Source of the DNA: Prostheceraeus crozeri
Taxonomy: Eukaryota; Platyhelminthes; Polycladida; Euryleptidae
Assembly (NCBI GenBank): GCA_907163375.1
Contig: CAJQUW010009231.1
Coordinates: forward strand, 1 to 64,000
Reading direction: 5' to 3'
DNA length: 64,000 bases
In this document: piece by piece, positions 371 through 22,977 of the stretch
Layout: the number at the start of each line of letters is the position of its first letter
Position numbering within the stretch: the stretch's first letter is position 1
Made by a program: the position numbers and the translations under genes
The notes under the pieces: model-generated
Told to the model about the DNA's origin: nothing
Seen by the model: only the letters and a program-made list of their open reading frames with translations
Databases searched by the model: none

Positions 371-1419
371 ACGTTTGAAGTCAATCTATTATGATGTAAA
401 CATCCGGCAGGATTTGCATCTATCAAGAAATTATCAAAAGCGAGTGGTCTTCCACAATCACAAGTGAAACGATGGTTAAAGGGTCAGGCTACCTATACAC
501 TCCACAAACAAGCGAAAAAGAAGTACCGCACCCGCCATTATATTGTTCATGACATCGATGAACAGTGGCAAGCAGATTTGTGCGATGTTGCCTCCATTTC
601 AAAACATAACTCGGGCAATAATTTTATTTTAACCGTCATTGATATTTTCTCGCGTTATGCGTGGGCTCAACCTTTAAAAACTAAAGAAGGGAAAGGAGTA
701 GCAAAAGCATTCCAAACAATTTTTCGAGAAGGTCGCATTCCAAAAAGAATTCAGAGTGATCAAGGAAAAGAGTTTGAAAATCAGCATGTGACAAGATTAT
801 TTGAGAGGCATGACATTGAGGTGTTTAGTGTAAAGAGCGCTTATAAAGCTGCACTCGTTGAAACGTTTTAATCGCACATTAAAAAATCGCTTGTGGCGAC
901 ATTTTACTGCCAACTTGACACAAAATTGGACAAAGGTTCTACAAGATACACTCCATGCCTACAATCACTCTATCCATCGTTCTATTGGACTCAGACCAGT
1001 AGATGTAAATGCTGACAATGTAGATAAAGTGCGCGAATCATTCCAACGTAAACGCACTCATGTGAAAAGTGATGTGAAAATTGGCGATAAAGTTCGTATC
1101 TCAAAAGTGAAAAGTGTTTTTGCTAAAGGTACCTCCCGAATTGGACAGAGGAGGTATTTACAGTATCAAGGATTAATCAAAAAGACTCTCCGACCACCTA
1201 CAAGTTGAAAGATTACGATAATGAAGAAATTGAGGTAGCTTTTACCGCGATGAGATTGAGGTAGTCACTGAAAGTGAAACATATTTGGTAGAGAAAATCA
1301 TTCGATGTAAAAAACGGCAAGGTGAAGAATGGTGTCTTGTTAAATGGACTGGTTATCCTTCAAGTATGAACTCTTGGATGCGTCGTGCCGACATCTTTCA
1401 TCTAAGTGATCGACAGTGA
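333..1419 (+). pseudogene. Maverick/Polinton-type retroviral-like integrase with C-terminal chromodomain, frameshifted
   Basis: The integrase would insert the linear element DNA into host chromosomes. The catalytic core shows the DDE pattern: WQAD near base 575, SDQGKEFEN near 755-785, and the Glu codon beside the frameshift at about 857. A chromodomain follows near 1285-1380, with the motif VKWTGYPSS and a final stop at 1417-1419. The coding frame changes four times: near 402 (one base lost), near 859 (one gained), near 1130 (one lost) and near 1235 (one lost). Between these points I see no in-frame stop. The start at 333 is the first ATG in the N-terminal frame. As assembled it cannot make a full integrase, but the pattern also fits base-calling indels in an otherwise intact gene. 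Confidence 0.85.
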
Positions 1420-1460
1420 TTCATGCAAAGTTGTAACTAACAATGTTTAGGGTTTGAGCT

Positions 1461-1916
1461 ATGAATCCAACTGCCTCATTTTTATTCACGACCCTCCTAC
1501 GTAAGTGGTGGAGGACAAATTTACATCGGCGCTCGCCGCCAACGTGGAGGTAGCATACTTGGTGCACTGAAATCTGTTGTAGCACCTCTCATATCCAATG
1601 TCGGTAGATCTTTAAAACGAAATGTTTTAAGTAATGCCGTTGGCTTTGCTGGTGATGTTGCTAGTGATCTTTCCAGAGGTAGAAGTTTTAAGAGCAGTTT
1701 GTTGAATCGTGGGAAGGAACGCGGTTTAAAAACATTGAAGCAGACCTTTGCTGGTGTTACTCAAGGAAAGAAATCACCTAAACGAATGAAAAAGGAAGGA
1801 GGAAACATCGCGGAGCTGGTAAGGTGCGATCTTCAGTCAAAAGGCATTCACGCAAACGTCGCAGAGGCTCTAATCATTCATCAGGCGCTAAACGACGACG
1901 CTGCTATAACTTCTAA
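1461..1916 (+). pseudogene. pX/pVI-like basic core or cement protein, frameshifted
   Basis: After a degenerate N-terminus (ATG at 1461, frame lost within a few codons) the frame is open from about 1471. It shows a Gly-rich segment followed by ARRQRGGS, then Ala/Leu helices and Arg/Lys-rich stretches. This organisation is typical of the short adenovirus pX/pVI-like proteins found beside Polinton capsid genes. A second frame change lies in the purine run near 1795-1805. The frame beyond it encodes an Arg/Lys-rich tail ending in RRRCYNF with TAA at 1914-1916, two bases before the capsid ATG at 1919. Such proteins are thought to bind DNA or the inner capsid surface; that role is inferred from family resemblance. 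Confidence 0.55.
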
Positions 1917-1918
1917 TC

Positions 1919-3196
1919 ATGGAGTGTAAAACTTCCGGTTTTTGTTTATTCGATCAACAAGCCATACAGACAGATATTCTTAGTTCAAGTATTGTAGATT
2001 ATCATCCTCGAACAGCTGAGAATGCTGGCCCCATTGAATTTGTTATTCCTGGTGGTAGTGATGACTACATAGATTTGAGTTATGCGATGCTTGATTTGAG
2101 GTTTAGAATTCAGCAAGCAGATGGAACTGCTATTGACGATACACATAAAGTTGGACTGAACAATTTACCATTGACTACATTACTTCGTGATGTTTCTCTA
2201 ACGATTGGAGAGCAGCAGGTGGAAGGTGTTCAAAGCGATTATCCCTATAAATCATATTTCAATCATGTATCACAGTTTCATCCAGCAGCACAAAAAAGTC
2301 ATATGGAAGCCATGGGATGGTACAGAGATGAAGCAGGAAAATTTGATGTTGAAACAAACAGTGGCTTTGTAAAGCGATCTGCTATGATTAAAGATAGTAG
2401 AGTATGTCAGCTATATGGTCCGCTGAATTTAGACTTCTTTAGACAGTCAAAGTTTTTACTGTGTAATACCAGCATGCGACTCAAGCTGACATTGAATAAG
2501 CCTGAATTTGCGCTAAATGCATTTGCTAAAGTTGACAATTTTAGAATTCATGTGGAAGATATTGCACTTTACATTCGTCGAGTAGTACCGAATCCAAGTG
2601 TCATTAGAGGGCATGCTGAAGGCCTTAACCGCCAAAATGCCATTTACCCCGTTCAGCATACAAAGCTTCTCACCTTTACAATTCCGAAAGATCAAAAGAG
2701 TTTCATGAAAGATGGCCTCTTTCCATCGGAAGCACCGAAGCTCCTCATGGTGGCAATGGTTGAAAATGATGCATTTAATGGTAATATAAAGAAGAATCCT
2801 TTCAATTTTAAACACAATCAGTTAAGTGAAATTGCTTTACGTGTAAATGGTGTGAGTCATCCTGGTCCACCCTACAAACCAGATTTTGCTTCGGATCAAT
2901 TTATGCGCAGTTATGTTGATTTTATGGATGTTTTTGGCTTTTACAATACGGATGACACCAACGGACTGACTATGAAAGAGTTTAAGAGTGGATATACTAT
3001 TTATGCATTTGATTTGACTGCTGACAGCGATATTAGTGCACCCTATCGTCAAGCGAACGTGCCTCATAATATTCGTTTGGATTTGACGTTCAAAAGAACA
3101 CTACCTGAGACGATCAATGTATTAATTTATGCAGTCTTCGATTCAAATATTGAAATTACAAAGTATCGTGACGTGATTCTTCAGTATAATCGTTAA
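1919..3196 (+). CDS. Polinton major capsid protein (double jelly-roll, F54H12.2-like family)
   Basis: This intact 425-residue protein starts at an ATG in good context (atcATGG). It resembles the widespread invertebrate 'F54H12.2-like' proteins of Polintons, regarded as the major capsid protein of the double jelly-roll (hexon) class. Visible are alternating beta-rich segments in two halves, including an N-terminal EFVIPGGSDDYIDLS stretch, a middle RLKLTLN strand, and a C-terminal RLDLTFKRTLP strand before the closing strands. It is the longest undamaged plus-strand gene in this block. Its TAA overlaps the ATG of the protease gene (TAATG), which suggests the two are translated from one transcript. 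A penton-type role is the alternative, but its length and central position favour the major capsid protein. Confidence 0.75.
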   Translation: MECKTSGFCLFDQQAIQTDILSSSIVDYHPRTAENAGPIEFVIPGGSDDYIDLSYAMLDLRFRIQQADGTAIDDTHKVGLNNLPLTTLLRDVSLTIGEQQVEGVQSDYPYKSYFNHVSQFHPAAQKSHMEAMGWYRDEAGKFDVETNSGFVKRSAMIKDSRVCQLYGPLNLDFFRQSKFLLCNTSMRLKLTLNKPEFALNAFAKVDNFRIHVEDIALYIRRVVPNPSVIRGHAEGLNRQNAIYPVQHTKLLTFTIPKDQKSFMKDGLFPSEAPKLLMVAMVENDAFNGNIKKNPFNFKHNQLSEIALRVNGVSHPGPPYKPDFASDQFMRSYVDFMDVFGFYNTDDTNGLTMKEFKSGYTIYAFDLTADSDISAPYRQANVPHNIRLDLTFKRTLPETINVLIYAVFDSNIEITKYRDVILQYNR

Positions 3197-3657
3197 TGAG
3201 TTGGCTGACTGCTGACGATATTAAGACTAAAGTGCAGCGTAATGCAGACGAAGCGACGTTGAAAGCTTTCGATAATGTCTATTCACTCGATACCTTACCA
3301 CCTGCAGTAAATCACTATCCCATCTTTATTGTGCTAAACACTCATTCACAGAATTTAGGCGGTGAGCATTGGAAAGCGATCTTTATTGGAGAAGACCGAC
3401 GTGGTGAACTATTTGACTCTCTTGCTCAACCTCCAAATATACCAACACAGCAGTGGTTGAGAAAACATACGCGTCAATATCAGCGAAATGAACGCATACT
3501 ACAACATCCACTTTCATCAACGTGTGGTGCTTTTGTACTGTACTTCATCTTAAGACGTTTACATGTATCTCGATTTGCATCTGTTATTCAAAACTTTTCA
3601 TGTAATCCATCCTCTAATGAAAAAATGATTTGTAAGTTCTATCATGATTTGAAATAA
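3196..3657 (+). CDS. adenain-like cysteine protease (capsid maturation protease)
   Basis: This 153-residue protein matches the adenovirus-type (C5/Ulp1-like) cysteine proteases of Polintons. The catalytic set is readable: His58 in GEHWK, Asp74 in LFDSL, Gln103 in LQHP and Cys110 in STCGAF. The Gln-to-Cys spacing of seven matches adenain. Family members cleave capsid precursors during virion maturation, and the gene lies directly behind the capsid gene, sharing one base with it. It is intact. A TAA ends it 26 bases before the convergent minus-strand TBP-like gene. Confidence 0.85.
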   Translation: MSWLTADDIKTKVQRNADEATLKAFDNVYSLDTLPPAVNHYPIFIVLNTHSQNLGGEHWKAIFIGEDRRGELFDSLAQPPNIPTQQWLRKHTRQYQRNERILQHPLSSTCGAFVLYFILRRLHVSRFASVIQNFSCNPSSNEKMICKFYHDLK

Positions 3658-3683: not shown

Positions 3684-4229
3684 TTATTTTACAATCCGCT
3701 GGGTACGTACATACTCAATGAGATAGTCTAGGATCATATTTGCTTGTACATGAGATTTTAGTCCAGTAATGATCACTTTACTATTATGAAAGATTGCCAC
3801 ATGCACAGGTAACCAACAACTAATGAGAGCTGCAGGAAAAAGTTCGGGTTCATAACACAAACTGTAACTGCTGGTACGAATCTTCAAAAATGATAGACTG
3901 TCACTCAATTGAGTAGAGATCACCATATTGTCCACAGTCAGATTCGACATCACACACCTCTCCCTCTTCCATATCCGACGTAGTAGTCTTTGTAGCTCTA
4001 AGCGCATTGACTGCGCCGATGAATGAGAAAGGGCGCCGAGAATCTGTACAGTCCCATTTGGGAAGAGTTGAAGATTCCGTGAATTGTTCATCTTCACCAC
4101 TAACATTTGAGGACGACCCGGGTAATACTTGCTGTTTGGAAGCTGTTGGTGTAATGTTGTGAGATCGATTTTGGTGTAGAGTCTGAAGCGACGGAGAATG
4201 TTGACGATGGTGTAGCGATGGCGCTTCAT
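3684..4229 (-). CDS. TATA-binding-protein-like protein (TBP core only)
   Basis: Starting at the ATG at 4229 the product is 181 residues, about the length of a TBP core, with both TBP repeats. Repeat 1 has Asn10, the KIDLTTL segment, a K-YYPGRP turn and LQLFPNGT. Repeat 2 has DNMV (Asn101), SYSLCYEPELFP, VAIFHNSKVIITG and a final helix. Three of the four DNA-kinking Phe positions of TBP appear kept (Phe56, Phe131, Phe148); the first-repeat one is Pro40. The two minor-groove Asn positions are kept. It should bind TATA-like DNA and recruit TFIIB-type factors; this is inferred from the fold. The same frame is open upstream to 4550, but that part encodes the neighbour's N-terminus. It sits on the minus strand between the protease and the small paralogues. 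Confidence 0.8.
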   Translation of the reverse strand: MKRHRYTIVNILRRFRLYTKIDLTTLHQQLPNSKYYPGRPQMLVVKMNNSRNLQLFPNGTVQILGALSHSSAQSMRLELQRLLRRIWKRERCVMSNLTVDNMVISTQLSDSLSFLKIRTSSYSLCYEPELFPAALISCWLPVHVAIFHNSKVIITGLKSHVQANMILDYLIEYVRTQRIVK

Positions 4230-4550
4230 GATGAAAGAATGAGTAAATTGAGCGATGTACCTTCCTTTTATACTTTTCCCAACTACCTTGATGAAATGTG
4301 AAGTTAGTATGAAGTTGGGAATGATAGAGTTGAATTCGCCGATTGTTGACGCGCAACCAGATGCGATTCCAATACGTGAATGTCTTTTCATATAGAAGTA
4401 TTTTAAATCCTTCATGATATGATGTAGAGATTGAAAATGGCGATAAGATAAAGCAAACTCTCTTCTCACATTTCCAGTTGAATCTTTGAAATAGACGTTT
4501 CGATCATGATCCGTTTCAATACGTTGTAGGGAATCTAATTTCCAACTCAT
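3901..4550 (-). pseudogene. small paralogous protein, copy 1, frameshifted and overlapping the TBP-like gene
   Basis: The N-terminus (ATG at 4550) is a clear paralogue of the next gene: SWKLDSLQ against TWILDSLQ, then a shared pattern ending in IMxDLxYF. At about 4385 the homology moves to another frame (RIQLYHSQ, then WEKYKRKVHRSI) that stays open to a stop near 3901. The conserved part ends near 4230, where the TBP-like gene starts in a different frame. The remaining 100 or so codons run antiphase through the TBP-like gene and encode a Ser/Thr-rich, then acidic tail ending GDLYSIE. That tail may be a true overlapping reading frame or chance. The function is unknown. One single-base indel splits the gene. 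Confidence 0.5.
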
Positions 4551-4572: not shown

Positions 4573-4929
4573 TTAAGATTTGCATAGTAGGGCGATGAAC
4601 TCACGACGAATAAATGTCATGATGGAGCGATGTATGTATCTTCTATACTTCTCCCAATTGTATTTGCGAAATGAGAAACAGTTTGCGGAATGAGAATGGT
4701 AGATTTGAATTTCATTTCTGTAATGTTGAAGCCAAACTTGATCACCCAGGGAGATGAATCTTAATGTTTCAAAATATTCCAAATCCCTCATGATATCATT
4801 GAGGTTGACAAATTGTCGCCATGTTAATGTAATTCCTCTTGATGTATGACCATGAGAATTTTTGAAATGTACGTTTCCATCACGATCAACTCTGATATAT
4901 TGTAGAGAGTCCAAAATCCAAGTCTTCAT
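4573..4929 (-). CDS. small paralogous protein, copy 2
   Basis: An intact 118-residue product from the ATG at 4929 (MKTWILDSLQ), chosen because it aligns with the start of copy 1. It is rich in aromatic and basic residues, with RQFVNLNDIM and WEKYRRYIHRSI shared with copy 1. No signal peptide, membrane segment or known domain is visible. The ATG lies 35 bases from the ATG of the divergent 466-residue gene (4965), so the two must share a very short control region. Tandem duplication of this gene beside the TBP-like gene suggests a related role, which is inference. Confidence 0.6.
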   Translation of the reverse strand: MKTWILDSLQYIRVDRDGNVHFKNSHGHTSRGITLTWRQFVNLNDIMRDLEYFETLRFISLGDQVWLQHYRNEIQIYHSHSANCFSFRKYNWEKYRRYIHRSIMTFIRREFIALLCKS

Positions 4930-4964
4930 GATGTTATGCAAAGTTGCAGATTAGCAATATAAAA

Positions 4965-6362
4965 ATGTCGTTTTATCATATTTTGCTTAGCAATGCGGCT
5001 ACAAAGAGATTTACTAGTAATCGAGCCGCACTCTTTTCTACTCCCATTGATCATGCACAACAGCTAAATGGGAATTGGGAAGTGGGTGTCACTCAACTTG
5101 TTTATAGCAACTGTGTCTATACTTTTGATCATGAGGTGATGACTATTAATATGAGACGTACAGCTGCTTACCAATGTGAAAAGGGCTGCCGAGTATACAT
5201 TCCACAGTGGCCAAAGAAAGATCTCTTATCATGTAAAAAGTTTATATATGATTTCTTGAATAAAGCGTGTAAACATATTGCCCAATTTACTCCACACAAT
5301 GATGATTATACTTATATACATCATGTAGTTGAGAAAGATTGGATTGTTGGTTTAAGTCCAAGTTTAAGAAATGATTTAGGTTACCTCGCTAGCGCCTTGA
5401 CAAGCTATGATAATTTTAACGTTAATTACCACATAAGTGCTCATAAACAGTTAATATATCGAGAGGAAGCTTATTATGTAGATCTTATTCCAAAAAATGA
5501 GAAGACGTTGGTGAAGAAGATTGTGATTAATCCAAGAAAGACAAACATGACTCCTGAAACATTATTGAAGAAATTTAATTATCTCCTTCGAGTTGATGGT
5601 AAACAAGTGGCAACATTGACTTATATTAAATCATCTAATCATATTGCAATAAGTAAATTAAATGATGATGATCTAGTATTAATTTGTTCAAAAGATTTTC
5701 ATCAGTTCTTGCGACATCATTCTGCAGCTGTTCATGGAAAATTTAATATGCAACATTTACCATGTGAAAGGTCAAATCAATTTGATACAGAATGGAGCGT
5801 ATCTTTATACAGAAAGTGTGTAGAGCCTTTCGGTGGTATCTTACATGAAACAAGAGTGCTGATGCCTCGCATCATTACTTCAGTTAAATTGGTTGTAGAT
5901 TATTTAAATGAAGTGATTAATGACCAACATATTTCATTTTCTGAAAAAGAAGGTACTTTGTCTCTCACTATAAGTGGAAAAGGTATTGAACTAATTATGG
6001 ATAAAACTCTAATGGACATTTTGGGTTTTGACCAAAATATCTTTAAAAGTGGTACTGTAACCAAAGCTAGCGCAGACATGTCGCTATCGCGTCGTATTAA
6101 CTATTTTCAGATATATTCCAATATTGGTGAAGATGTACGTGTGGGAGATGTTGAAGCTCCATTGCTAGCAATGATACCATACCAGCCAAAGAGCTGCAGT
6201 ATTTTATCTGAGCATACTTTCAAGAAAGTGCATTATACAAAGCTGAAATCAAACTACATCCCACAAATTGATATTGCCATTTATGACGATGCTGGTGCGT
6301 TGATTCCTTTTCATAAAGATGCTGTGACAAGTATCACACTCCATTTCCGAATGAAGAGTTAA
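4965..6362 (+). CDS. Polinton 'WEVG' structural protein, copy 1 (candidate minor capsid/penton-class)
   Basis: A 466-residue intact product starting at ATG 4965 (MSFYHILLSNAAT), preferred over the upstream frame because it aligns with the SFxxxLPSNA start of its paralogue. The N-terminal motif (xLxSNA..., then NWEVGVTQLVY) belongs to a conserved protein of invertebrate Polintons that I recognise by pattern. A virion (minor capsid or penton-like) role is usual for that gene slot, but I cannot confirm a jelly-roll by eye. About 40 bases separate its stop from the start of copy 2. No frame damage is seen. Confidence 0.6.
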   Translation: MSFYHILLSNAATKRFTSNRAALFSTPIDHAQQLNGNWEVGVTQLVYSNCVYTFDHEVMTINMRRTAAYQCEKGCRVYIPQWPKKDLLSCKKFIYDFLNKACKHIAQFTPHNDDYTYIHHVVEKDWIVGLSPSLRNDLGYLASALTSYDNFNVNYHISAHKQLIYREEAYYVDLIPKNEKTLVKKIVINPRKTNMTPETLLKKFNYLLRVDGKQVATLTYIKSSNHIAISKLNDDDLVLICSKDFHQFLRHHSAAVHGKFNMQHLPCERSNQFDTEWSVSLYRKCVEPFGGILHETRVLMPRIITSVKLVVDYLNEVINDQHISFSEKEGTLSLTISGKGIELIMDKTLMDILGFDQNIFKSGTVTKASADMSLSRRINYFQIYSNIGEDVRVGDVEAPLLAMIPYQPKSCSILSEHTFKKVHYTKLKSNYIPQIDIAIYDDAGALIPFHKDAVTSITLHFRMKS

Positions 6363-6401
6363 TGCAAACGTATGCTAATATATTTTTCCAATGTGAATAA
6401 T

Positions 6402-7922
6402 ATGGAAAGTGAAAATAAGGACTCGTTTCTAATCTACTTGCCCAGTAATGCTTCTATGAATAAATTTCCCAAAAATAAACCATCAGACTATCGAGTAGAA
6501 TTAAATCGCCCACTGCATTTAGAAGGTGAATGGGAGGTTGGCGTTTCTAGTATTTGCTATGATAGCAATATTCAGAATGTGAATGATTTGGAAGAAATGA
6601 TATTGACTCCTCGCACCCATGATGGAATAACGATGAATAATGCATTTCAGTTCCCATACAATTTAACATCAGATGGAAAGTGGAACTATGAATGGATTCA
6701 GATAAAATCAGATTCTTATGAGCCATTTGGGAATGAGAAAATTATTAAGGCATTCAACAGTGGTAATACTTCCATCATGAAGAATAAAAATCAGAAAGCT
6801 TATGAGTTTACTATCTATCATTGGAGTGGGAGACAGTTCCTCCGCTTTCATTCTTTTACTAAAGGTCTTACGCTGAGGTTGGATAGTGAATTCTATCCGC
6901 ATCTCGGTTTTGGTCATGGACTACATCTAACGTCAATTGCTACTGCAAATGTTAGAAAAGTTTATTCAAATCGAATCAACAAATTTCATTATAGATTTAA
7001 AATATTTGATGAAGATGTTGTAGAATGCGAAGAACGCATCATTTTGAAAAAGCGTGGTGTTCAACCTTTATCACTTATTGAGTTAGTAAAACGATGGAAT
7101 GAGACTGTGGGTAAGAAGTATGGAGAGAAAATTATGGCGGACAAAAATAAGTTGGTTATTCAGAAATATAATGACAAACTTACAGTTTATTTCTCTCCAA
7201 CCTTGCGTCATTTTGTAAGACATTATACACCTATTATTGGAAGCGGTGTGGTATATGCTTCTCATGAATATCACACTAAAGCTGATTCAGTTAATGATGA
7301 ATGGTGGGTGGACATCTATGGCGATCGCATCAAGAAAATTTACCAGTCTTATGAAGAATCTAAAGTTGCTATCAATATAATGCCGCGTCTATATCATACA
7401 GTTGAAAGCTTCATTCATGTAGTAAATCCTTATATACAACAGAAGTTGAAGCATGTGATGAAAAGTAAATATGATGTAAAGACACACCACATTTCGTTTT
7501 CAATTGAAAATCAACGCGTTGTTCTGAGACTGGGTGATGACATTCAATGTCAATTGAGTAAAAATTTGAAAAAACTCTTTGGTTTTTCAATGCTACAAAC
7601 TGTGTTTGCTGCTGCGCATACGATTGGTATAGAAACACCAATGACACTTGATAAACATGAACAGCACCTTTACATTCAAAGTGATTTGATTCTACCTATT
7701 TCTGTTGGTGAGAAAAAAGAATACATTTTACGTGATTTCATTCATGATAAAGACGCTTCATATGGAATAGTCGAGAAGATGTTTGAATCTATTTTCTATC
7801 ATCCCGTCGTCAAACAAACTATACCCTCTATTGCTATCAAAATTACCAATGGTTTACAAGAGTGCATCCATGTGAAAGATACTAAATCCCTCATAACGTT
7901 AGTGTTTCGGAAAACAAAGTGA
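6402..7922 (+). CDS. Polinton 'WEVG' structural protein, copy 2 (candidate minor capsid/penton-class)
   Basis: A 507-residue product from the ATG at 6402 (MESENKDSF); an upstream in-frame ATG at 6372 would give 516. It has the family N-terminus LPSNASMNKFPKNKPS followed by EWEVGVSSICY. It is a diverged paralogue of the preceding gene with the same layout: N-terminal WEVG block, a middle RHxTPI / RHHSAA segment and a C-terminal 'LLxxxFGF' like region (LKKLFGFS here, LMDILGFD in copy 1). Both copies are intact, suggesting both are used, perhaps as two capsid vertex or minor components. The role is inferred. Confidence 0.6.
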   Translation: MESENKDSFLIYLPSNASMNKFPKNKPSDYRVELNRPLHLEGEWEVGVSSICYDSNIQNVNDLEEMILTPRTHDGITMNNAFQFPYNLTSDGKWNYEWIQIKSDSYEPFGNEKIIKAFNSGNTSIMKNKNQKAYEFTIYHWSGRQFLRFHSFTKGLTLRLDSEFYPHLGFGHGLHLTSIATANVRKVYSNRINKFHYRFKIFDEDVVECEERIILKKRGVQPLSLIELVKRWNETVGKKYGEKIMADKNKLVIQKYNDKLTVYFSPTLRHFVRHYTPIIGSGVVYASHEYHTKADSVNDEWWVDIYGDRIKKIYQSYEESKVAINIMPRLYHTVESFIHVVNPYIQQKLKHVMKSKYDVKTHHISFSIENQRVVLRLGDDIQCQLSKNLKKLFGFSMLQTVFAAAHTIGIETPMTLDKHEQHLYIQSDLILPISVGEKKEYILRDFIHDKDASYGIVEKMFESIFYHPVVKQTIPSIAIKITNGLQECIHVKDTKSLITLVFRKTK

Positions 7923-8227: not shown

Positions 8228-11200
8228 TTATGCTAAGACGTCTCCTGAATGTGGTAGTGTGAGTTTAATTCTTTTGGGTGGTGGTATGTTTGTGTCAGGA
8301 TGTCCATGTGGAAGAGATATGTTGTGTTCTAGCCAGCACCTCTTATCCTCCCATGCTGAAAGCGCCCGTTTCATAAAAGTATGAGTTTTGATCTCATGCG
8401 ACTTAGATTTTAAGATTGTCATATTGACAAACGTTATATTTTTATTTCTATAGGCTTTCCTGAAATTCTTATGTTTCATGTTAGAGACCAATGATCTTGA
8501 TATGCCTTTAGCGCGCTTAATGCTATCATCACTATCCTTTAATTTCATAGAATACATTTTAGGGCGGAGGAGAATCATTTCAGCTATCTCCTTCCCTGCT
8601 GTCTCATCCTTAAAGCAGCCAAGTTTTGCCTTATTTTTGATGGAGTATAGTGGATGATTAGCAGGATAATTTGATGTATCAAAATATCTTTCTAAAGATT
8701 TTCCTACTTCATTAAAATTTAAATCTTTTTGAGTGGTAATACCTAAAAAGAAACTATCTGTGTCACCACCCAACAAACGAACCTCTTTTACGAGAGGACA
8801 CGGTTTTAGTATTTTATAGAAGAGTTGATACATTTCAAGCTTGGAGTAATCTAGAACAGCTTGACCAATATAGATGGGTTTGCACAACTCAACTTCAGAT
8901 TTTATCATTTTAATACCTACAAGATCCTCATCGATTATGTCTCTATCGATGAATAGAGGTGATGAGATCAATTTGTGATACTTTTGATCATCATTAACTA
9001 GTTTGTAGTTTACGCGCTTTCTAACATCCTCCATCGTCTTACCAAATAGACTGTTGTTCTTATATTTATAAAAATCTTTTTCAAAATTATTTTGGGCTAG
9101 TGCACGTTTCTGACTGTTACTATCTATGTAGGGTTTGAGGAAGGCTTTCTGTCTAAATTTAATAATGCGGTGAACTCTTTTTAAAATCATGCCCATTTCT
9201 AAATAAAATTTTAAGATGCTAAAGTGGACTAGATAGTTTTCCTTATCATATTGAGTGAGTAAAAGTTTGCGGCAAGGCTTATACTTGGGTTGTCCACATG
9301 ATTCTAAATCTTTATGAAATTGTTTCATAAAGTCGGAAAACATATCTTTACTCACTTCACCTGATTCGGTGCGAGTGGAAAATCTACGGTTTTATGTTTA
9401 ATATTATTTGGATAGATTAGATCTATCTCAAAATAATATCCCCAATCACCTTCATCTGGAATTGCTAGTATGTTGGAAGGGTTGGAGAAATGTTGAATTT
9501 CACTATCATCTAACCAGCTAAACTCAGAGTGAGGTAGCGGTTTGGATAATGAACTACCATACAAATTATTTTGGTCATAATACTTCAGATGAGTCTGGTC
9601 ATTACCTACTATTTTTGATTTTAACCTATGTTTATTTACAAATGTGAGACCACCGCGAATTCCTCGCTCAAATAAATTATACATCTCTGGATCTTGTAAG
9701 AGATGAATGGTCTCACCAGTCATTTTAAAAGCAGACTTAAATGACATGGCTGGCAGACTGACAAAGTGGACGGGATCTAACTTATCTTCTTCTAATGCCA
9801 CTCGTCGAAACTCCTGAAATACATCAGCCAGCAAAAATACATCTAACTTAAGGTAGGCAATCATATATTCACCAAATGTATGGCAGTCAAATTTTATCCA
9901 TGCATCTTGTGCATGATCATAATCTTCGGTCTTACATTCTGCGCCGGTCAAATCATTTTTAAATTTATCTATGGGCGGAAGAGAAGTCTCGCCGAGTTTA
10001 CTAATTGCATCAAAATATGCATATGGAAAGACTCCTTTCCGCGTGATGACTTCATCGGTTAGATTTGGATATTGTTTCTTAAGATTTTGTGTTAGTGGAA
10101 GAGACTTTAGATTTTGCACGAGAGAGGCCAGTGATGCAGTCATAAATTGGTAGGAATCTAAAAATTTTATATCAAAATAGACCGTCTTATTTTCTTTAGT
10201 TTTATCGACAGGCACTTTTGCTGTCATGGCCATAAACTTCTCTCTCGTTTGTGCTATTACATCAAGCTTCCACTCTTTCATTTGACCTAAACCTCCTTTT
10301 ATTATCATATGGCTGTCGTAGCCCTTGAAATTATGGAAAATGACGGGTAATGTACGCCGCTTCATCCTCAGCGAAAAATTACATTTTGAACAGAGTGCGT
10401 TTCTAAATTTACCAGTGATGTGGTCATGGTCGCGCACTTTCTTAATCTTATCATCGTCAAATGTTTTCCTACATTTGGGGCAAACGTTGCAACTATCAAA
10501 TTTTGCTTGATCATCTGCTGTCATATGCAATGATCTGCGATAGAGTTCACCATCATACTTTTGTTGAAATTTTACAGCCTGTTCGAGGAATTGTAGGAAT
10601 TGGTAAATACAATCCTCACCTTGCCAGACGTGCATTTTATTTTTTCTATTTTGGAAATGGTCATGCCATACTTCATAGCAGGAAATGGCTGCTGGTCGAT
10701 GGATGTTATCATCGATATAACATTCGATGTCAGCATAGATGACACGAAGAGGACTTAGTTCATCGCCATTCTCTCTATATGAAAACTCCTTATCTTTGGG
10801 CATGCGTTCCATTTGCAGTTTACCTCGCTTACACCACTCATAATGAGTTTCAAATTTGTTTTTACTCCTAAAGTTCCGAATGCATCTGTCACAGTAATAA
10901 ATCTCTGATGAGGTAGAATTTCTTAAGTGGTGGTATAAGCGAGAGATTTTGGGAATGCCGCAGTAGTGCCATTCCTCACTATCATCCTGTCTTACTAATA
11001 AAAGGTTGACAACATGATCATAACAACTCGAACGCGAGTTGTAGCGCACACCCTTCAATCCCTTTTCCCAAACATGGAGAACTATTTTAATGTTGTTCAA
11101 TTTTTCAAATTTTTCTATATCTTTAATTTTCATATCGTCACTATTACAGTCATCGAAGTTTAATTCATTCTCCCACTGCCTATAGCTATATGTACGATTT

Positions 11201-12201
11201 CGATTCGCATTGATGTCATTATAGTGGAGAATGGAGAGGACAGCATATTTAAAACATTGCGATTCGCAATCGACATTGATGACTGCTGTTTTGTTTTTTA
11301 AATTTTTTGGAAGTTTAAAGGAGCCTCGACCACTATGATTTCCTAATAAACTGATTTTGAATAAGGCGGACTCAATGCCGTCAAAAATGAGACCGCTATC
11401 GCGCTCGTTAAATTTATCAATATTTAATTTTAATCCTTGGATGTGAAAATTTATCCAAGACTCATAGTCTACAACCTCGGTTGCAGGAGAGGAGGGTATG
11501 TGAAACTCCAACCTCTCTATTATTTGTCCAGTATGGTGGTCGATTTTTACATATTTTATTTTAAGATAGATGAGCGCCTTCATCCTAAAATTGTCTAAAT
11601 TGTTGAAGAGCGCTTCTATCAATGATGAATTTTGATGAAACCATTCCTCAAAGTTAGCAATGGTTTCTGAGGAGTCCATCTGGTAGTTCCTCACTAAATT
11701 ATTTATGGACACTTCAGTGAGTCGGATAGAGGAGGTACCGTTGGTGTAGCTATCGTTCGTGTGTGTATGTTGAAGTCTGTGCGAAGATAGTTCAAAACGT
11801 GTCTCGAAAGACTGAGCGCACAAGTCGCAAGAAAAGGAGACGACGTTAACAGAATCATCCCCACCTCCGGAGATTGATGCCGGCTTAGGTCGACAAACAC
11901 CTCGCTTGATGTGTCGGGTGAGATCCCATTTCCTCGTGAAGATGTGCCCACAGTCAGCACATTCCCACTCGTTACCATGTCGCGACAGTTCTGAGCTGGA
12001 ACTCACATCACCTGAAAGAGAAATCATTCTATCATCTCTGTTCAAGCCTCAGTGTATTGTTGCAACCTACCTTGACTCAATAACTCTAAACTTTCCTCGA
12101 GAAGGGAGGGCGTTGGTGATGAAGTTGATGCCTGAAATTGAGGAAGATGCTATGAACCACACGTTTGAGGGAGATGAGAGAGGAAATCTTCAACTTACCA
12201 T
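8228..12201 (-). pseudogene. protein-primed family B DNA polymerase of a Polinton, two 5' introns, one frameshift
   Basis: Reading from the right: ATG at 12201-12199 alone on exon 1 (donor GTAAGT), exon 2 at 12131-12071, exon 3 from 12011, all joining in frame. Positions below count in the exon-3 open frame. Two C2H2 fingers (29-51, 73-95), a region near 253-370 with SQCFKYAV and WHYCGI resembling the OTU-like cysteine-protease domain often seen in invertebrate Maverick polymerases, a CxxC...H...C finger (385-405), Exo I (YADIECY, 437), an endonuclease VII-type CxxC/DHDH/CxxC block (522-555), Exo II (FHNFKGYDSHM, 570), Exo III (YLKLDVFLLADVF, 731) and Pol motif A (YYDQNNLYG, 822). After a one-base loss near 9357 the next frame carries motif B (NNSLFGKTM) and motif C (GGDTDSF). 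It replicates the element. The single indel may be real decay or an assembly error. Confidence 0.88.
12012..12070 (-). other. predicted 59-nt intron in the polymerase gene
   Basis: The minus strand reads CAAG|GTAGGT at the donor and TTTCTCTTTCAG|GTGATG at the acceptor. The join restores codon G|GT and continues in frame into the zinc fingers. The pyrimidine-rich tract before the AG is good. A second intron, 12132-12198 (67 nt), reads ATG|GTAAGT to CAATTTCAG|GCA. Confidence 0.6.
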
Positions 12202-12932: not shown

Positions 12933-13132
12933 TAAATGTTTATTTCGTATTATCTTTGCTTTCATACTGACTTACTTGAATGGGGCTTTAGTGAATAATT
13001 TAACCATGTATACTTCTTCATTTGGAAATAGTAGCACGCTTAGTTTAACTTGCAAATCTTATAACATTTCATATGGGTGATAATGGTAGATGAAATAGTG
13101 TTAAATAAAATTAAGATAGCTTACATGATTCT

Positions 13133-13663
13133 GGGATAGCAATCGACTGCGATCCATGTGTAAAGAGCTTGTTAGACTACGGAAGAGAGAAGTGTGTTAT
13201 GTTGCGTGTGGCGCGTGAGTGTCCTCCCTTTCATTCCATTCATCAATTCGTCTCATTGATAGAGACAGGTAGAACTCATGGCTCTCATAACGTATGCAAT
13301 GGAAAGTTTTAGGCAACCTTCGACAGTTGGCTAAATGTCGCCCTGGCGCGAATGCATACTACGTTGAGACAGAGGCAATCACTTGCAAACATGACGCAGA
13401 GAGGTTTAACAAGATTGACCATTGCCGAATGTCCCTTGCGGTATACATAGCTACGGGTTTCACCGCCGCCCTTTACAGGAACGCCCGTCGAAAGGAAGTA
13501 TTACACCGAACTTCATTTGCAACGTTCAAGTTGACTGATAGCAGATTCAACTTAATGATAGTATTCGCCAGTCCGAAGACTGCCCAGGGCAAACCGCGTG
13601 GAGGTTCTATCATGTCTTGCCCCATGGTGGCCCTTAAGAGAGCCGATGGTTCATTCTCGGGAT
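13133..13663 (+). repeat. 531-bp tandem duplicate, copy 1 (5'-truncated gene copy)
   Basis: Bases 13133-13663 repeat at 14017-14547 with an offset of 884. I saw two substitutions (near 13211 and 13410 in this copy), so the duplication is recent. This copy lacks the start codon and first residues present upstream of copy 2, and carries the same ORF (ATG 13294) ending just past the repeat. It is probably a non-functional partial copy. Confidence 0.85.
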
Positions 13664-13983: not shown

Positions 13984-14549
13984 ATGAATTGCTCAACAGC
14001 GAATCAGAATGCTTCAGGGATAGCAATCGACTGCGATCCATGTGTAAAGAGCTTGTTAGACTACGGAAGAGAGAAGTGTGTTATGTTGCGTGTGGCGCGT
14101 GAGTATCCTCCCTTTCATTCCATTCATCAATTCGTCTCATTGATAGAGACAGGTAGAACTCATGGCTCTCATAACGTATGCAATGGAAAGTTTTAGGCAA
14201 CCTTCGACAGTTGGCTAAATGTCGCCCTGGCGCGAATGCATACTACGTTGAGACAGAGGCAATCACTTGCAAACATGACGCAGAGAGGTTTAATAAGATT
14301 GACCATTGCCGAATGTCCCTTGCGGTATACATAGCTACGGGTTTCACCGCCGCCCTTTACAGGAACGCCCGTCGAAAGGAAGTATTACACCGAACTTCAT
14401 TTGCAACGTTCAAGTTGACTGATAGCAGATTCAACTTAATGATAGTATTCGCCAGTCCGAAGACTGCCCAGGGCAAACCGCGTGGAGGTTCTATCATGTC
14501 TTGCCCCATGGTGGCCCTTAAGAGAGCCGATGGTTCATTCTCGGGATAA
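13984..14549 (+). pseudogene. unknown Cys-containing protein, split by a frame change (contains duplicate copy 2)
   Basis: The ATG at 13984 opens a 70-codon frame (MNCSTANQNASGIAIDCDPC...) ending with TAG at 14194-14196. A second frame from ATG 14178 encodes 123 residues (QWKVLGNLRQLAKC ... GGSIMSCPMVALKR). The two overlap by 19 bases in different frames. The same arrangement is present in copy 1, so the break predates the duplication or is functional. No standard slippery heptamer is seen at the join. I do not recognise either part. They may be one decayed gene or two overlapping genes. Confidence 0.45.
14017..14547 (+). repeat. 531-bp tandem duplicate, copy 2
   Basis: Partner of 13133-13663, starting at GGGATAGCAATCG and ending at TCTCGGGAT in both copies. 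Only this copy keeps the upstream coding sequence. Confidence 0.85.
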
Positions 14550-14566: not shown

Positions 14567-15901
14567 TCAAGCTTGCCGCTTCGCCTCCGGCTCGTTGACG
14601 GAAGCAGGTGGGCGCTTCTCTTTGATATCTGTAAAGAAAGAAGTTGTTAGTTATTATCTTGAACTCTAAGTTACTTGTTTTAACTTACAGATCTTCTCAG
14701 GACGTGGCTCGAACAGGAATCCTGTGATCGCCTCCTTGTGGTCGAATGTAAAGTGAAGGCATTCGATACCTTTTTTAGCCCTGCTATAACACATCTCGTC
14801 TCTGCCACGTTCACAGAGGAGCGGTCTTGCGGGCACACGTCCTTTCTTGTCAAGGGGAATGTGGAGGCGACTTGATCGTCGAGTACTGCTACTCATCACT
14901 TGCTGGTGCAGCTCCTGATTAGTCGCCACCACCTTCCCCAACTGCTTTCGCAGCCCTTCCACCTCCTCCCTCATCTTTCTTAACTCCTTCTCCTGACTCT
15001 CTCTCTCGATGAGTAGCTGCTCTTCTTTAGCCTTACTAGCGAGGTGCGAGAACCTCTCGCGATCGAGCTCTCCTTCTTTCTCAAAAAGACTAGCTTGAGT
15101 CTTCTTGAGCTCCTGAGTGACTCGCGAGAGGTTCTCGGAACTCGCTTTATAGAAGAAACAGTCCCTCTTCCACACCTCCAACTCATTCTTCAGCTTGTCA
15201 TAGTTATCAACCAGTGGTGGGCGCATAATGAAGTTGCGACATTGAGCCGCAATCCCACCACTGGTTGATAACTTAGCCGGCTGCACCTCGCTATCGAGGT
15301 CAACGTCCCTCACCGCCTCTACCTCGCTATCGAGGTAGACACTCTCGACTAGGTCAACCTTCGTCGAGCCTTTATCCTCCTCCTCTTCCTCACTGTCGCT
15401 GCTACTTGTAGCCGACTCATCGCTAGAGGAGGAGGAGGAGGATTTACTCGACTTCGGAGAAGACTCAATCGGAGTGGGTGAGAGAGCCTTTGCTGGCACG
15501 CTAGAAGATGGAGCCTCTGCTGACGTGATAGACTCGACAGCAGACTGAGTCTCTAGAATCGGGGTGGGCGAGAGAGCCTTTGCTGGTGCACAAGATGAGG
15601 GAGGCTTTGCTGACGTGATAGCCTCGATAGCACACTGAGTCTCCAGAGCTTTCAACTCTGAGCTGAAGAGACTTTGCTTCGCCTCCTCAGTCAGCTCTGG
15701 TTGACTGCAGCTGCTGTGCTTCGCATGCCACTCCGGTAGCGTCTCGACAAGGCGAGATGCATTATGGCTGCTACAAAAGTATCGAATGCCCCCTACCATT
15801 CGCTTATGTGCACAAGAATGCTTCTTAAAGGCATCGCTACGAAAAATCTTTGAACAGACGCAAAGCTTAAAAGCCGTCTTTGCATTGTTGTAGTTAACCA
15901 T
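14567..15901 (-). CDS. coiled-coil, Ser/acid-rich protein with N-terminal Cys/His motif, spliced
   Basis: The CDS reads complement(join(14567-14628, 14689-15901)), with a 60-nt intron from donor CT|GTAAGT to acceptor TTTCTTTACAG. Splicing replaces a short tail with a basic, Pro-rich C-terminus (KEKRPPASVNEPEAKR). ATG 15901 is in strong context and follows an acceptor-like TTTTCACTTCAG, implying a 5' UTR intron. About 425 residues: an N-terminal CxC...HSC...C/H segment (a possible zinc fold), a 30-residue tandem repeat containing PAKALSPTP, a long Ser run then an EEEEED run, a heptad-rich coiled coil in the C-terminal half, and a basic tail. No family is recognised. A structural or DNA-organising role is possible. 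Confidence 0.65.
15047..15137. repeat. inverted repeat, 16-bp perfect arms, inside coding sequence
   Basis: The arm CGAGAACCTCTCGCGA (15047-15062) is the exact reverse complement of 15122-15137, with a 59-base loop. It lies in the coiled-coil part of the 14567-15901 gene. Confidence 0.8.
15202..15273. repeat. inverted repeat, 20-bp perfect arms, inside coding sequence
   Basis: The arm AGTTATCAACCAGTGGTGGG (15202-15221) is the exact reverse complement of 15254-15273, with a 32-base loop. The mRNA would form a stable hairpin in the middle of the reading frame. Confidence 0.85.
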
Positions 15902-16546: not shown

Positions 16547-16823
16547 TGCTCGGAAGAAAACTTAAAATGGCTCTATCTCCGAAAGTATTCATCGTAGCGA
16601 CATGCGGTTTGTTGCAAACGATTTGTCTCATCATTCTCTATCATATGACACCTCAACCATTCTCATATGACCACGGGAAGTTGGTGTGTCAGCACATGAC
16701 CATGTAACATGCCACAAGTGAAAAAATTCCTAAGTGTGGGAGCTCCAGTGTGGTGAAAATTTTGAAAAATTTAAAACTTCCGAATTTTGACCTGGGACCT
16801 TTACCAAAACATTTTTCATCAAA

Positions 16824-17776
16824 TTTCGCTGACGTCCCCCCCCCTCTGGACAGCTTGCTTCGATCTTGGCTTCTAGTGGACGGATTTTGTCGAGTGAGGT
16901 GTCATTTGAAAGCTAAGAGTGAGACAAATTCACTGAAACAAACGGCTTGTTCCTATCTGTCTTCGTTTACATGTGAGACGCCATTTAAGATTTTAGGTCG
17001 GAGCTCACCTGAAAAAATCCTAAGTGTCAGAGTGATTTTGTATGGGAAAAATTAAAAATTTTCCAAAGTGTGGAATTTCGACCTGGGACCTTTACCAAAG
17101 TTTGTTTCATCAAATTTCGCTGACCCCCCCCCCTTTGTTCTAACTTTGGTTCTAGTGGACGGATTTTGTTCGTTCGAGTTGCATTGGAAAGAGGATGAAA
17201 CACTGCTCGACCGCATTTTTCGTTGCGAGTCAATCGGAGCAGCCGTTCAAAAGTTAGAGCGGTTACAAGATTTTAGGTCGGAGCTCACTCTGACACTTAG
17301 GATTTTTTCAGGTGAGCTCCGACCTAAAATCTTGTAACCGCTCTAACTTTTGAACGGCTGCTCCGATTGACTCGCAACGAAAAATGCGGTCGAGCAGTGT
17401 TTCATCCTCTTTCCAATGCAACTCGAACGAACAAAATCCGTCCACTAGAACCAAAGTTAGAACAAAGGGGGGGGGGTCAGCGAAATTTGATGAAACAAAC
17501 TTTGGTAAAGGTCCCAGGTCGAAATTCCACACTTTGGAAAATTTTTAATTTTTCCCATACAAAGTCACTCTGACACTTAGGATTTTTTCAGGTGAGCTCC
17601 GACCTAAAATCTTAAATGGCGTCTCACATGTAAACGAAGACAGATAGGAACAAGCCGTTTGTTTCAGTGAATTTGTCTCACTCTTAGCTTTCAAATGACA
17701 CCTCACTCGACAAAATCCGTCCACTAGAAGCCAAGATCGAAGCAAGCTGTCCAGAGGGGGGGGGACGTCAGCGAAA
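16824..17776. repeat. large palindrome: 465-bp arms around a 23-base loop
   Basis: The left arm 16824-17288 and right arm 17312-17776 are reverse complements in exact register (coordinate sums are 34600 throughout), with few mismatches seen. The loop is 17289-17311. Each arm holds two related units of about 280 bp sharing GACCTGGGACCTTTACCAAA and a run of 8-9 C (G in the right arm). Apparent ORFs in the two arms are mirror images and are not genes. It is probably a foldback repeat or rearranged satellite; an assembly inversion artefact is possible. Confidence 0.9.
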
Positions 17777-18090
17777 AATTTTTATCTCCGATTGCTTTCA
17801 AATTCACCATACAGATGCAGAATTTCACGCTGAATCCGAATCTGGCCTCCGTTTTCACATCCGAGGCTTCGTTTGGACACTACACACCAAAACATCCCAC
17901 AGTTTAACCAAGACAACCTAGACGGTCGCCCAGGTCAACCTAGACGGTCGCCCAAGTCCACCAGGCGGTCGGACACAGACACCCGAGACTCACACACTGC
18001 CGGTTCAGAGGGGGGGGGACGTCAGCGGAACCTCGCCGGTACATCACGACACTGGCGGACCAGAGGGGGGGGGGACTCAGCCACGACGGC
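17750..18090. repeat. three G-run motifs (AGAGGGGGGGG) in a degenerate repeat
   Basis: AGAGGGGGGGG...ACGTCAGCG recurs near 17753, 18007 and (without the exact tail) 18062, continuing the motif of the palindrome's right arm. A duplicated TAGACGGTCGCCCA...GGTC element lies near 17918-17955. The runs of 8-9 G are rare elsewhere in this AT-rich window and could form G-quadruplexes only if clustered in trans or over long loops. Confidence 0.6.
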
Positions 18091-18120
18091 GGCCATCTTG
18101 CGCTATCTGGTGTTCGCCGT

Positions 18121-18875
18121 TTTCTTACTACTCGCGGTGACTTGACGAAATCCTTCGGAAATTCATTGACGTAAGACAAAACTTTAGAAAGCGGCGATTG
18201 AGCTGACTTAGGCATGTTGAAAGTGATGAAGTGACGACACCATCGTCGAATTGTATCGATCTTTCATCCGTATCCGTACACGAGAAGAATAATTTTCCCT
18301 ATCTCTCCGCGACCAACCAGTGTTCACCCGAATTGAGAGCGCATGCAGGCGACTGCTGATGCGTCTACACCATACTCTTTGGTCTACACAGAAAGCTTCA
18401 CATCACTAAGAACTCTGGATAAAACAGAAGTTAATCCATGATTGCTCGCAAAATCGCGGAGTTTGACTATATTTTGACCCATAATGCGTTTTTTGACATT
18501 ATTGACTTAAAAACATTTTTTTGACTTTTTATTGACCTTCATTGACTTTATTGACTTTTGGTCACCCTAGTTATCATACTGTTTCTCAATCGCTTCAAAA
18601 TATTTGCATTAGGTTTGTAGAAACAAAGTCGAATGCTTTACAAATTTCGTGATACATGTCTTATCAGCTTCTGAGGTGAATCCCCACCAGCTCTGAACCG
18701 CGTAGACTTGGCATGCATCTTTTCTGCTGGTACCTTGACTTCGTATGATTTTCATAGCATAAAGACTACTATTACAGATTAAAATCTTCGAGTTTTTCTG
18801 TTACAGATCTGAGGTTCGCATAGCGGCCGAGGCTGTAAGGATCATTGATGCTTGAAAAAGCTATAGGCATGATTA
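18121..18875. other. non-coding; TTGACTT-rich stretch
   Basis: No supported gene. Near 18460-18565 the sequence repeats TTGACTTT/ATTGACTT in loose tandem. The remainder shows no recognised feature. Confidence 0.4.
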
Positions 18876-19404: not shown

Positions 19405-20814
19405 CAGGGTGCCTGGTAAAAAACCGGTAAATTTAGTTAAGCACGTTATATTATCAAAAGTATTAACGCACAAGAAAAATGAGCATTATTTACATTGATT
19501 CAAAAATGTTCAAAATGTCCTCCTTCAGCACGGGTACATTGATCCAAGCGATCCGGCCATTTTCGAATTGCGTGCCGTATGGTATTCACTGGTATGTCAT
19601 TCCATGCATTCGTCAGTGTAGTTTTCAGATCTTTGATGGTAAGTATCTCATTCCTTTGCAATTGCACTCTGTGTAAAAGCAAGCTCCAAATACAATAGTC
19701 AAGCACGTTTAAATCAGGACTTTTTGAAGGCCATTGATCTGGTTCGATCAAATCAGGCGCATTTTGTCTCAACCAACTCACAGTTTCTCTGGCAGTATGA
19801 GCTTTTGCTCCGTCCTGTTGCCACGTCCAAGTGTGCTGTCCCACTTGTGCAAGTATGTCATTAAACATATTGGGGCACATTTTATTTCGATAAACATCCT
19901 GATTGACGGTCTTCTTTCTTTTGCGATAGTGAGGGACATTTTCCTGACCTGCTGCGTAGCCTTCCACAAAATAGAGATTAGTTTTCCCAAACCACGAAAC
20001 ACTTCCGTAGCACATGATTGATGGAGTCTGTTTGTCAATCTGCACCACGAGGTCATCCTTCGGAATTTCAGTCTTGCATGTTACTCTGCGAAAAACACGT
20101 TCGTTTTGTTTGTTTAATGGTGGATGGATAGAAAATGACGATTCATCAGAAAACCAAATGTCCATCCATTTCTCGTTTTGAAAACGTTCAATCATAGCCT
20201 CGCATTTCCTTTTTCGAGCAGCTTTATGTGTGTCTGTCAGAAATTGACATTTCACTTTTCGGTAGCATTTCAAACCAACCTGTTTTTGAATATTATACAC
20301 AGACCATTTCGAAATCCCAAGTTCTCGAGAAATTTCGCGTTGACTACTGTGTCGCCGACCTTTGTCAACAGGAGACATGGACAGATCCAGTACAGCTTCC
20401 TTAATGGAAGAATCAATACGTGTGGCAGTTCCCGTACCTGGTTTACGCTTTTCAGCAGCAACAGCTCCGTGAATTTTTAACGAGGCAGCAACTGCAGAGA
20501 ATTGGTGTCGGGTAATTTCTCCAAAGAAATTGGGAAGGATCTCCTGACACCTCTTTAATCCCCATGTTGAGTTTTCAGTCTTAAACAAAACAATCACAGC
20601 TCGTTGGAAATCCGACAACTGCGGCATCTTGAGATGAATAGATGAGTCAGCAGCAGCCCACACCGATCGTTTATGCTACAGCGTGATTTCTAACAGCAAA
20701 TTAGCTTTCATTCTGATCTCATTGGCTGACGACATTCAATGGACAACTAAGTCGAGATTGCATGAATAAATCTGCTGTATAATGAAAATTACCGGTTTTT
20801 TACCAGGCACCCTG
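19405..20814 (-). mobile_element. Tc1/mariner-superfamily transposon, DD37D (maT-like), intact
   Basis: Terminal inverted repeats start CAGGGTGCCTGGTAAAAAAC and match perfectly over about 26 bases at both ends. TA dinucleotides flank each side (19403-19404 and 20815-20816), as expected for this superfamily. The 1410-bp element carries one intact transposase gene, which suggests recent insertion. Confidence 0.93.
19500..20627 (-). CDS. DD37D mariner/maT-like transposase
   Basis: A 375-residue product from the ATG at 20627 (MPQLSDFQRAV); the open frame extends 12 codons upstream without another ATG. An N-terminal helix-turn-helix region is followed by a second HTH-like part (REISRELGISKWSVYNIQKQ). 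Catalytic residues are readable: Asp in WFSDESSF, Asp in TWQQDGAKAH and Asp in SPDLNVLDY, with 37 residues between the last two. This spacing is that of the maT/DD37D group rather than DD34D mariner or DD34E Tc1. The gene would cut and paste its own element at TA sites. There are no stops or frameshifts, so it may be active. Confidence 0.9.
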   Translation of the reverse strand: MPQLSDFQRAVIVLFKTENSTWGLKRCQEILPNFFGEITRHQFSAVAASLKIHGAVAAEKRKPGTGTATRIDSSIKEAVLDLSMSPVDKGRRHSSQREISRELGISKWSVYNIQKQVGLKCYRKVKCQFLTDTHKAARKRKCEAMIERFQNEKWMDIWFSDESSFSIHPPLNKQNERVFRRVTCKTEIPKDDLVVQIDKQTPSIMCYGSVSWFGKTNLYFVEGYAAGQENVPHYRKRKKTVNQDVYRNKMCPNMFNDILAQVGQHTWTWQQDGAKAHTARETVSWLRQNAPDLIEPDQWPSKSPDLNVLDYCIWSLLLHRVQLQRNEILTIKDLKTTLTNAWNDIPVNTIRHAIRKWPDRLDQCTRAEGGHFEHF

Positions 20815-22224: not shown

Positions 22225-22977
22225 TCAAAAAATAGCCGAGCATTCACAAAGGAAAGGCCATGCAGCTTTTAAATAATCGAAGAACACTTGAGAACCAACA
22301 TACCAGACAACGAATATTTCATCATTGCTATTATGATCGTTTGGCTCGCCGGTTTTCCACATGAATCCTGGTGTTGGAATACTTATTTTTGACATGTACC
22401 AATACCATCCCTCTTTGACATTCATTCCCTTTTCTTGTGTGCCCCCGACGTAAAGGCCTTTAACATTCCATTTAAACGGTACATAAGATCTTACAAAATT
22501 CCTTACGGCCTGCAACTCCTCTTTTGTTGTCAATTCAGCTAGTTTTGCACCATCTTCACGGCAGCTCCTTTCCGCTTCCGACCAGTTCACCGCAGTAAGA
22601 TTTAACTTGTACTGCGAGCTTCGCCATTTAAAAGAATATTCTGAAGGACATTTATTGATTGTTGATATTTTGGTGTGGATCCAGATCTCCGCTGTGGGTA
22701 TTGCAGGTCTGATGATTTCTAGTTGGAACATCGGGAGAGGCGGCAATAAATCGCAATAGAGATTCACATGAATGGTGGCATGTTGAGGCTCAAGCATGCA
22801 AAGTTGAGCGCAATCTTCAGCTTCATGGACATCAGAGATGTGAGCAAGCGGTTGAATGGAGTCAAGATACGACTCTGCGACATGAACCTTCTCGAAACAG
22901 TTATCAAGCTGACAATTTATTACATGAAAGAATATGAAAAATGAGCATGCGACAGAGTATACAACAATGTGCACCAT
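22225..22977 (-). CDS. secreted C-type lectin-domain protein with N-terminal PAN/apple-like segment
   Basis: A 250-residue single-exon ORF. Residues 1-22 form a hydrophobic signal peptide (VVYSVACSFFIFFHVINC). Residues 27-65 have a Cys pattern (NCFEKVHV ... DCAQLCML) like the start of a PAN/apple domain. From about 110 (CPSEYSF) to the end is a C-type lectin domain with SEAERSCREDGAKLAELTT, a GLYVGG strand, GWYWYMS, W-TGEPND and FLCE. The EPN triplet usually marks mannose-type, calcium-dependent sugar binding. The inner disulfide cysteine expected near DEIFVVW is absent (Phe instead). A role in secreted immune recognition or adhesion is inferred. Missing introns could mean the gene model is incomplete or a retrocopy. 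Confidence 0.75.
   Translation of the reverse strand: MVHIVVYSVACSFFIFFHVINCQLDNCFEKVHVAESYLDSIQPLAHISDVHEAEDCAQLCMLEPQHATIHVNLYCDLLPPLPMFQLEIIRPAIPTAEIWIHTKISTINKCPSEYSFKWRSSQYKLNLTAVNWSEAERSCREDGAKLAELTTKEELQAVRNFVRSYVPFKWNVKGLYVGGTQEKGMNVKEGWYWYMSKISIPTPGFMWKTGEPNDHNSNDEIFVVWYVGSQVFFDYLKAAWPFLCECSAIF

Follow-up and report, generated by a model that had tools for sequence, protein, structure and literature searches.

Does a virus-like transposon in the genome of Prostheceraeus crozeri carry its own TATA-binding protein (TBP), and if so, which promoters might that protein serve? The question is raised by an open reading frame (ORF) in the window, the whole stretch analyzed here, which comprises the first 64 kb of contig C7663. 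An earlier note, made from the sequence, had read this ORF as a TBP encoded by a Polinton and had suggested that it could redirect transcription to the element's promoters. We compared the ORF with protein, profile, and structure databases and searched the genome (2.05 Gb, 14,165 contigs) for further copies of the element.

A TBP gene within a Polinton

Profile searches confirm the predicted 181-residue, minus-strand protein as a two-repeat TBP. Its coordinates (Table 1) were correct in the earlier note; its strand, absent from that note, is minus, reading from 4229 to 3684. Both TBP repeats are present: hmmscan matched Pfam TBP (PF00352) over two stretches at E = 2.6e-19, with a score of 69.3 bits vs. 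a curated cut-off of 22.9. As a single phmmer query, the protein recovered 35 distinct PDB sequences at E ≤ 0.01, named as TBPs or TBP fusions (top E = 1.2e-11), and a 12-row family profile matched PDB TBPs with a best E of 3.1e-28. Three of the four DNA-kinking Phe residues and both minor-groove Asn residues were found, as the earlier note had described; which residues kink DNA or touch the minor groove, and what each does, we assume from cellular TBP. A single-sequence search of the protein database matched 13 proteins, 11 of them TBPs, and the TBP profile matched 744 at E ≤ 1e-3.

By its genes and ends, the surrounding element is a Polinton, with AGT-start repeats, a target duplication at one of the two copies checked, an integrase, a predicted protease, and an ATPase-like gene. 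Terminal inverted repeats of the C315 and C347 copies begin AGTAGTAAG, as does the repeat at the right end in the window. The C315 copy is flanked on both sides by GATATT, a 6-bp target duplication, and the flanks of the C347 copy differ; the ends of the C3467 copy were not located in the pieces examined. An inverted-repeat search confined to the window did not give the element ends, the left end lying outside it, ~5.3 kb left of position 1; the element length, reckoned from coordinates of separate pieces, is ~23.4 kb. The left part was examined in the C315 copy (L021). One ORF there is ATPase-like, having a P-loop-like motif and weakly matching Pox_A32 (E = 0.019, under cut-off), and another is core-like, weakly matching adenovirus protein X (E = 0.0024, under cut-off).

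Table 1. Element features by window position
Feature	Position	Strand	Remarks
Integrase, two frames in the window copy (395–868, 834–1208)	395..1208	+	rve E = 2.7e-11 in first piece; none in second
ATGCAAA box	1423..1429	+	−37 of pVI-like start (placed by eye)
Small glycine/basic-rich ORF, called pVI-like by eye	1465..1929	+	no Pfam family above cut-off; homologue in L035
Conserved 425-aa protein, putative capsid	1919..3196	+	242 relatives
Ulp1/adenain-type protease	3196..3657	+	convergent with TBP; Pfam C48 E = 0.001, just under cut-off
Element TBP gene, 181 aa + stop	3684..4229	−	Pfam TBP, PDB TBPs, genomic copies, dN/dS
Overlapping ORF, 216 aa in other copies	3901..4550	−	3′ half covers first ~109 TBP codons in another frame
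TATAAAAG box	4265..4272	−	43 nt upstream of TBP ATG; within overlapping ORF
Paralogue (118 aa) of overlapping ORF's N-terminal half	4573..4929	−	44% identity; outside TBP
ATGCAAA box	4579..4585	−	−35 of overlapping ORF
ATGCAAA box	4936..4942	+	−29 of ORF 4965
Large ORF, presumed virion protein	4965..6362	+	31% homologue in L065
ATGCAAA box	6362..6368	+	−40 of ATG at 6402 (−10 of first ATG, 6372)
Large ORF, presumed virion protein	6372..7922	+	32% homologue in L065
Presumed type B polymerase, two frames (12048–9352, 9391–8228)	8228..12048	−	zinc fingers + endonuclease VII
Right terminal inverted repeat	16719..18132	.	element end at 18132

Several gene labels carry assumptions of ours. The capsid label is presumed from usual Polinton gene sets, and the 425-aa protein has no sequence match in the PDB. 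The type B label of the presumed polymerase is one we assign from known motifs; its ORFs contain an Endonuclease_7 match (E = 1.5e-6) and no Pfam polymerase match, and the second piece has no PDB match. The protease aligns with the ASFV protease S273R at E = 0.014. The integrase frame is open across 355 aa in a divergent relative, L035, with a chromodomain-like C terminus.

The TBP ORF sits between the protease and further element genes, as had been claimed, and this arrangement recurs outside the window. A search with a relative of the capsid protein (57% identity to the window version) gave 99 matches, from which we took 30 loci; TBP adjoins the protease in all 30. It spans residues 1–181 in 24 of them and is nearly complete in L035 with a different TBP query, and it is partial or decayed at five (L036, L038, L041 at a contig end, L059, and L061). 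L035 and L036 are divergent from the window (capsid 54–55%, protease 39–41% identity), and the L035 TBP is 42% identical to the window TBP and 46% to P0005. These 30 loci and the 744 profile matches bear out the reading of the ORF as a TBP that belongs to a Polinton and has homologues in related elements.

Within the genome, the TBP protein is identical over all 181 residues and stop-free in 150 of 150 scored matches; the matches scored were the top 150 among 11,899 first-look candidates and thus represent at least 150 intact copies, with decayed copies outside the count. TBP DNA in 20 of these copies differs from the window at 0–2 of 543 positions, but because the copies were selected by protein identity they are no test of selection. 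One locus (G000:C4467:147444-151509) holds two intact TBP copies in opposite orientation ~3 kb apart, the first covered by L002, pointing to nested or rearranged elements.

Other features of the element include a 539-bp direct duplication (13125–13663 and 14009–14547; 99% identical), a near-perfect 465-nt inverted repeat with a 23-nt loop within the terminal repeat region (16824–17776), and, between the presumed polymerase and the right end, a minus-strand 411-aa serine/acid-rich ORF (14666–15901) with no Pfam match above cut-off. One database relative of the capsid-like protein (P0016, 86%) is filed under a "Pseudomonadota bacterium" MAG and is probably eukaryotic contamination. Elsewhere in the window are a recently inserted Gypsy-type retrotransposon (24294–28397), in which a 1217-aa polyprotein is open and the 217-bp direct repeats share 99.5% identity; a minus-strand Mariner/Tc1-type transposase ORF (19500–20627; DDE_3 E = 8.6e-5, under cut-off); and a minus-strand ORF with a C-type lectin domain (22225–22977; E = 2.8e-5). 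Rfam and tRNA scans of the window gave nothing useful, nor did scans of viral contigs (TBP, capsid, and polymerase queries), genome contigs, and plasmids.

The overlapping gene and the upstream boxes

The N-terminal half of the TBP gene is shared with a second ORF, represented in the database by protein P0009, which continues across it in a different frame. Of 20 other genomic copies, 19 have this 216-aa ORF open and one, L013, has it truncated, which indicates that the window copy is disturbed; a divergent-lineage ORF stands in the same relation to TBP at L035:131-733. A 288-aa model of the TBP gene (4550–3684) was rejected: its first ~61 residues are the start of P0009, which goes on in another frame. 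Among the 24 relatives that extend 25 residues or more upstream of the first-repeat Asn, 13 have a Met at the corresponding point, which supports the 181-aa start; this pattern was picked post hoc. Upstream of that Met, the TBP frame keeps an apparent imprint of the overlapping gene in 13 of these 24 (residue shuffles of this post hoc pattern: mean 0.05, maximum 2), and the TBP gene is possibly a case of overprinting on a second gene. A PC4 coactivator label for the overlapping ORF, a by-eye likeness, was dropped, there being no PC4 match in Pfam up to E = 10.

Codon comparisons of the window with sister copies L030–L033 (83–85% identical) indicate that the element TBP is under purifying selection, with dN/dS of 0.18–0.29. 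For codons 112–181, dN/dS was 0.26, 0.29, 0.19, and 0.18, respectively, and 0.18–0.27 in the overlapped part; part of the change in L030 and L033 is decay, because both have a stop in TBP. TBP dS was 0.24–0.33 in the overlapped part vs. 0.45–0.48 elsewhere, the lower value being expected if both frames are in use.

Two kinds of box lie upstream of the element genes. The first, TATAAAAG, precedes TBP in 20 of 20 copies and also in L030 and L032–L034, and among the genes examined TBP alone has it upstream. L031 has TGTAAAA at this position, L035 has TATAAAAGG at −46, and L036 has TATATAAC despite changed overlapping residues. Because the TATAAA falls in coding sequence of the overlapping gene, the box could be preserved by constraint on that gene's protein.

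The second kind is found at other genes. Upstream of 17 gene starts (window plus L021), ATGCAAA was the top 7-mer, present at six starts that account for six of its nine occurrences (binomial 9e-9, uncorrected) and absent at 11, including the presumed polymerase. For the divergent lineage on C12605 (12 starts), the top 6-mer was AAGCAA, and five genes have TAAGC[A/T] at −34 to −38: pVI-like, ORF 4965, ORF 6372/6402, core-like, and ATPase-like. They are orthologues of five of the six ATGCAAA genes. A joint motif, A[A/T]GC[A/T], occurs at −26 to −48 in both lineages for five of 10 gene pairs (background ~0.11 per lineage) and in one lineage only for four more; TBP has it in neither, and the L036 pVI-like gene is without the box. 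A permutation under looser rules, in which picks could overlap and repeats were permitted, did equally well in 31 and 16 of 1,000 trials, and a stricter one, with non-overlapping picks and the first family minus its repeat-rich right part, in 0 and 1 of 2,000, for a motif defined post hoc with two starts set by eye (the pVI-like start is one base off an ATG, and 6402 was used instead of 6372) and one second-lineage start that is a match start rather than an ATG. New here, as read from these upstream regions, are a TATA box conserved at the TBP gene and a distinct candidate A[A/T]GC box common to five other genes.

A candidate promoter switch

We aligned the TBP family from 120 of the 744 profile matches (123 rows including the window; 107 after dropping 16 rows shorter than 150 aa). 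The first-repeat stirrup Phe is replaced by Pro in 105 of 107 rows, and the remaining three kinking Phe are retained in 107, 106, and 107. Minor-groove Asn is present in 96 of the 96 rows with a letter at the first site (11 gaps) and in 104 of 107 at the second. At the second stirrup, Glu is kept in 106 and 107 rows, followed by Leu in 91, Ile in 15, and Val in 1; this Glu/Glu/Leu stirrup we take to correspond to the TFIIB-contacting positions of cellular TBP.

We judge it moderately probable that the element runs an early-to-late switch in which host TBP leads to production of element TBP, which in turn, through host TFIIB and Pol II, serves the A[A/T]GC promoters. Initially, the element TBP would be transcribed from TATAAAAG by host TBP and RNA polymerase II. 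The product, with its first stirrup altered from Phe to Pro and its Glu/Glu/Leu stirrup kept, would then nucleate host TFIIB and Pol II at promoters that carry the A[A/T]GC box, those of the presumed virion and packaging genes, and element transcription would pass from early to late. L036 lends this reading further support, as the TATA box is kept there although the overlapping residues have changed. More tentatively, a private TBP with changed DNA preference (A[A/T]GC over TATA), one host-TBP-driven gene alongside a private-TBP set, and a TBP overprinted on a second conserved protein might together constitute a minimal self-bootstrapping switch.

The protein might instead be an ordinary working TBP of no new specificity, an extra TBP for TATA or TATA-less promoters, with the ATGCAAA/TAAGC box recognized by a host protein, for example one of the POU class. 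The three kinking Phe and both Asn that it retains would suit this role, and the exact box form at some starts, ATGCAAAT, is, as we assume from general knowledge, a POU/octamer site. However, TAAGC[A/T] of the divergent lineage is not a POU site, the boxes lie at TATA distance, and the first stirrup is altered in those 105 rows; we regard this explanation as unlikely.

Less probable still is a decoy or inhibitor that occupies TATA boxes or TFIIB unproductively and so damps host transcription. Strong divergence from cellular TBP would be compatible with such a role, and loss of a kinking Phe could yield abortive complexes, but the putative TFIIB-contact Glu residues are kept almost throughout the alignment (106 and 107 rows), and a decoy leaves the box common to the other genes unexplained.

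Origin and wider setting

The window TBP is 21–23% identical to three eukaryotic TBPs, vs. 80–86% among those three, and 28% and 22% identical to two archaeal TBPs. A 50-row tree comprising 45 element-type and five cellular TBPs (TRF/TLF, nimavirus, mirusvirus, and giant-virus TBPs were left out) places all 45 element-type rows on one side of a branch of length 3.15 with support 100/100; the M. jannaschii TBP is oddly placed in it. Searching the same genome with a plant TBP query revealed a canonical spliced host TBP in two exons (79% and 75%), a TLF/TRF2-like host stretch (44% identical, one internal stop), and 147 additional places at 23–26% that are element-type TBP (eight loci read). The TLF name of the 44% stretch is our assignment from known TLF features.

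A recent retrocopy of the host TBP captured by a single element, the outcome that the earlier note had set beforehand against its own reading, has virtually no likelihood: the element gene is without an intron, as a retrocopy would be, but the low identity, the fully supported separation from the five cellular TBPs, the canonical TBP also in the host genome, and hundreds of element-type homologues in the database speak against it. On these comparisons, the predicted TBP gene is a long-standing member of the Polinton lineage and no host retrocopy.

The element resembles Polinton/Maverick and adintovirus-type relatives in its AGT-start inverted repeats, 6-bp duplication (one copy), rve integrase, predicted protease, ATPase-like gene, and adenovirus-X-like core; compared with known Polintons, it adds a TBP and an overlapping second gene. 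Our searches of open-licence PMC papers turned up no account of a Polinton-borne TBP, and the main texts of two surveys contain no occurrence of TATA or TBP (PMC11071296, PMC11071308). Nimaviruses (wsv303 of WSSV) and mirusviruses have a TBP gene, an instance likewise of a eukaryotic DNA virus carrying the gene (PMC10871703, PMC4506587, PMC10132985). Both are large viruses, and WSSV-like TBP ORFs measure 818–891 aa vs. 181 aa here. Poxvirus VITF-3/VETF likewise represents virus-owned, TBP/TFIIB-like promoter choice but differs in having a viral polymerase partner and minimal sequence similarity (PMC12917281). The parts of the element that were read showed no gene for a multisubunit polymerase.

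Together with these poxvirus factors, the herpesvirus late-promoter TBP mimics are the closest functioning analogues of the proposed switch: KSHV ORF24 is reported to be a comparable viral factor that chooses non-canonical late boxes for host Pol II. EBV BcRF1 is another such mimic, with the late box TATTWAA. Unlike these mimics, the element protein is clearly a TBP by sequence. Animal TLF/TRF2 is also a divergent TBP with altered stirrup Phe; the host TLF-like stretch is 44% identical to plant TBP, whereas the element TBP is ~22% identical to eukaryotic TBPs.

Thousands of promoters depend on cellular TBP, which is why its sequence hardly varies. The elements described here offer a large family of naturally diverged TBPs that no longer carry this load, each beside the few promoters it probably serves, and TBP specificity is thus open to study by comparing TBP/promoter pairs. 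If the proposed switch is true, small virus-like transposons would use a basal factor to govern when their genes are transcribed, which has so far been known from viruses of much greater size.
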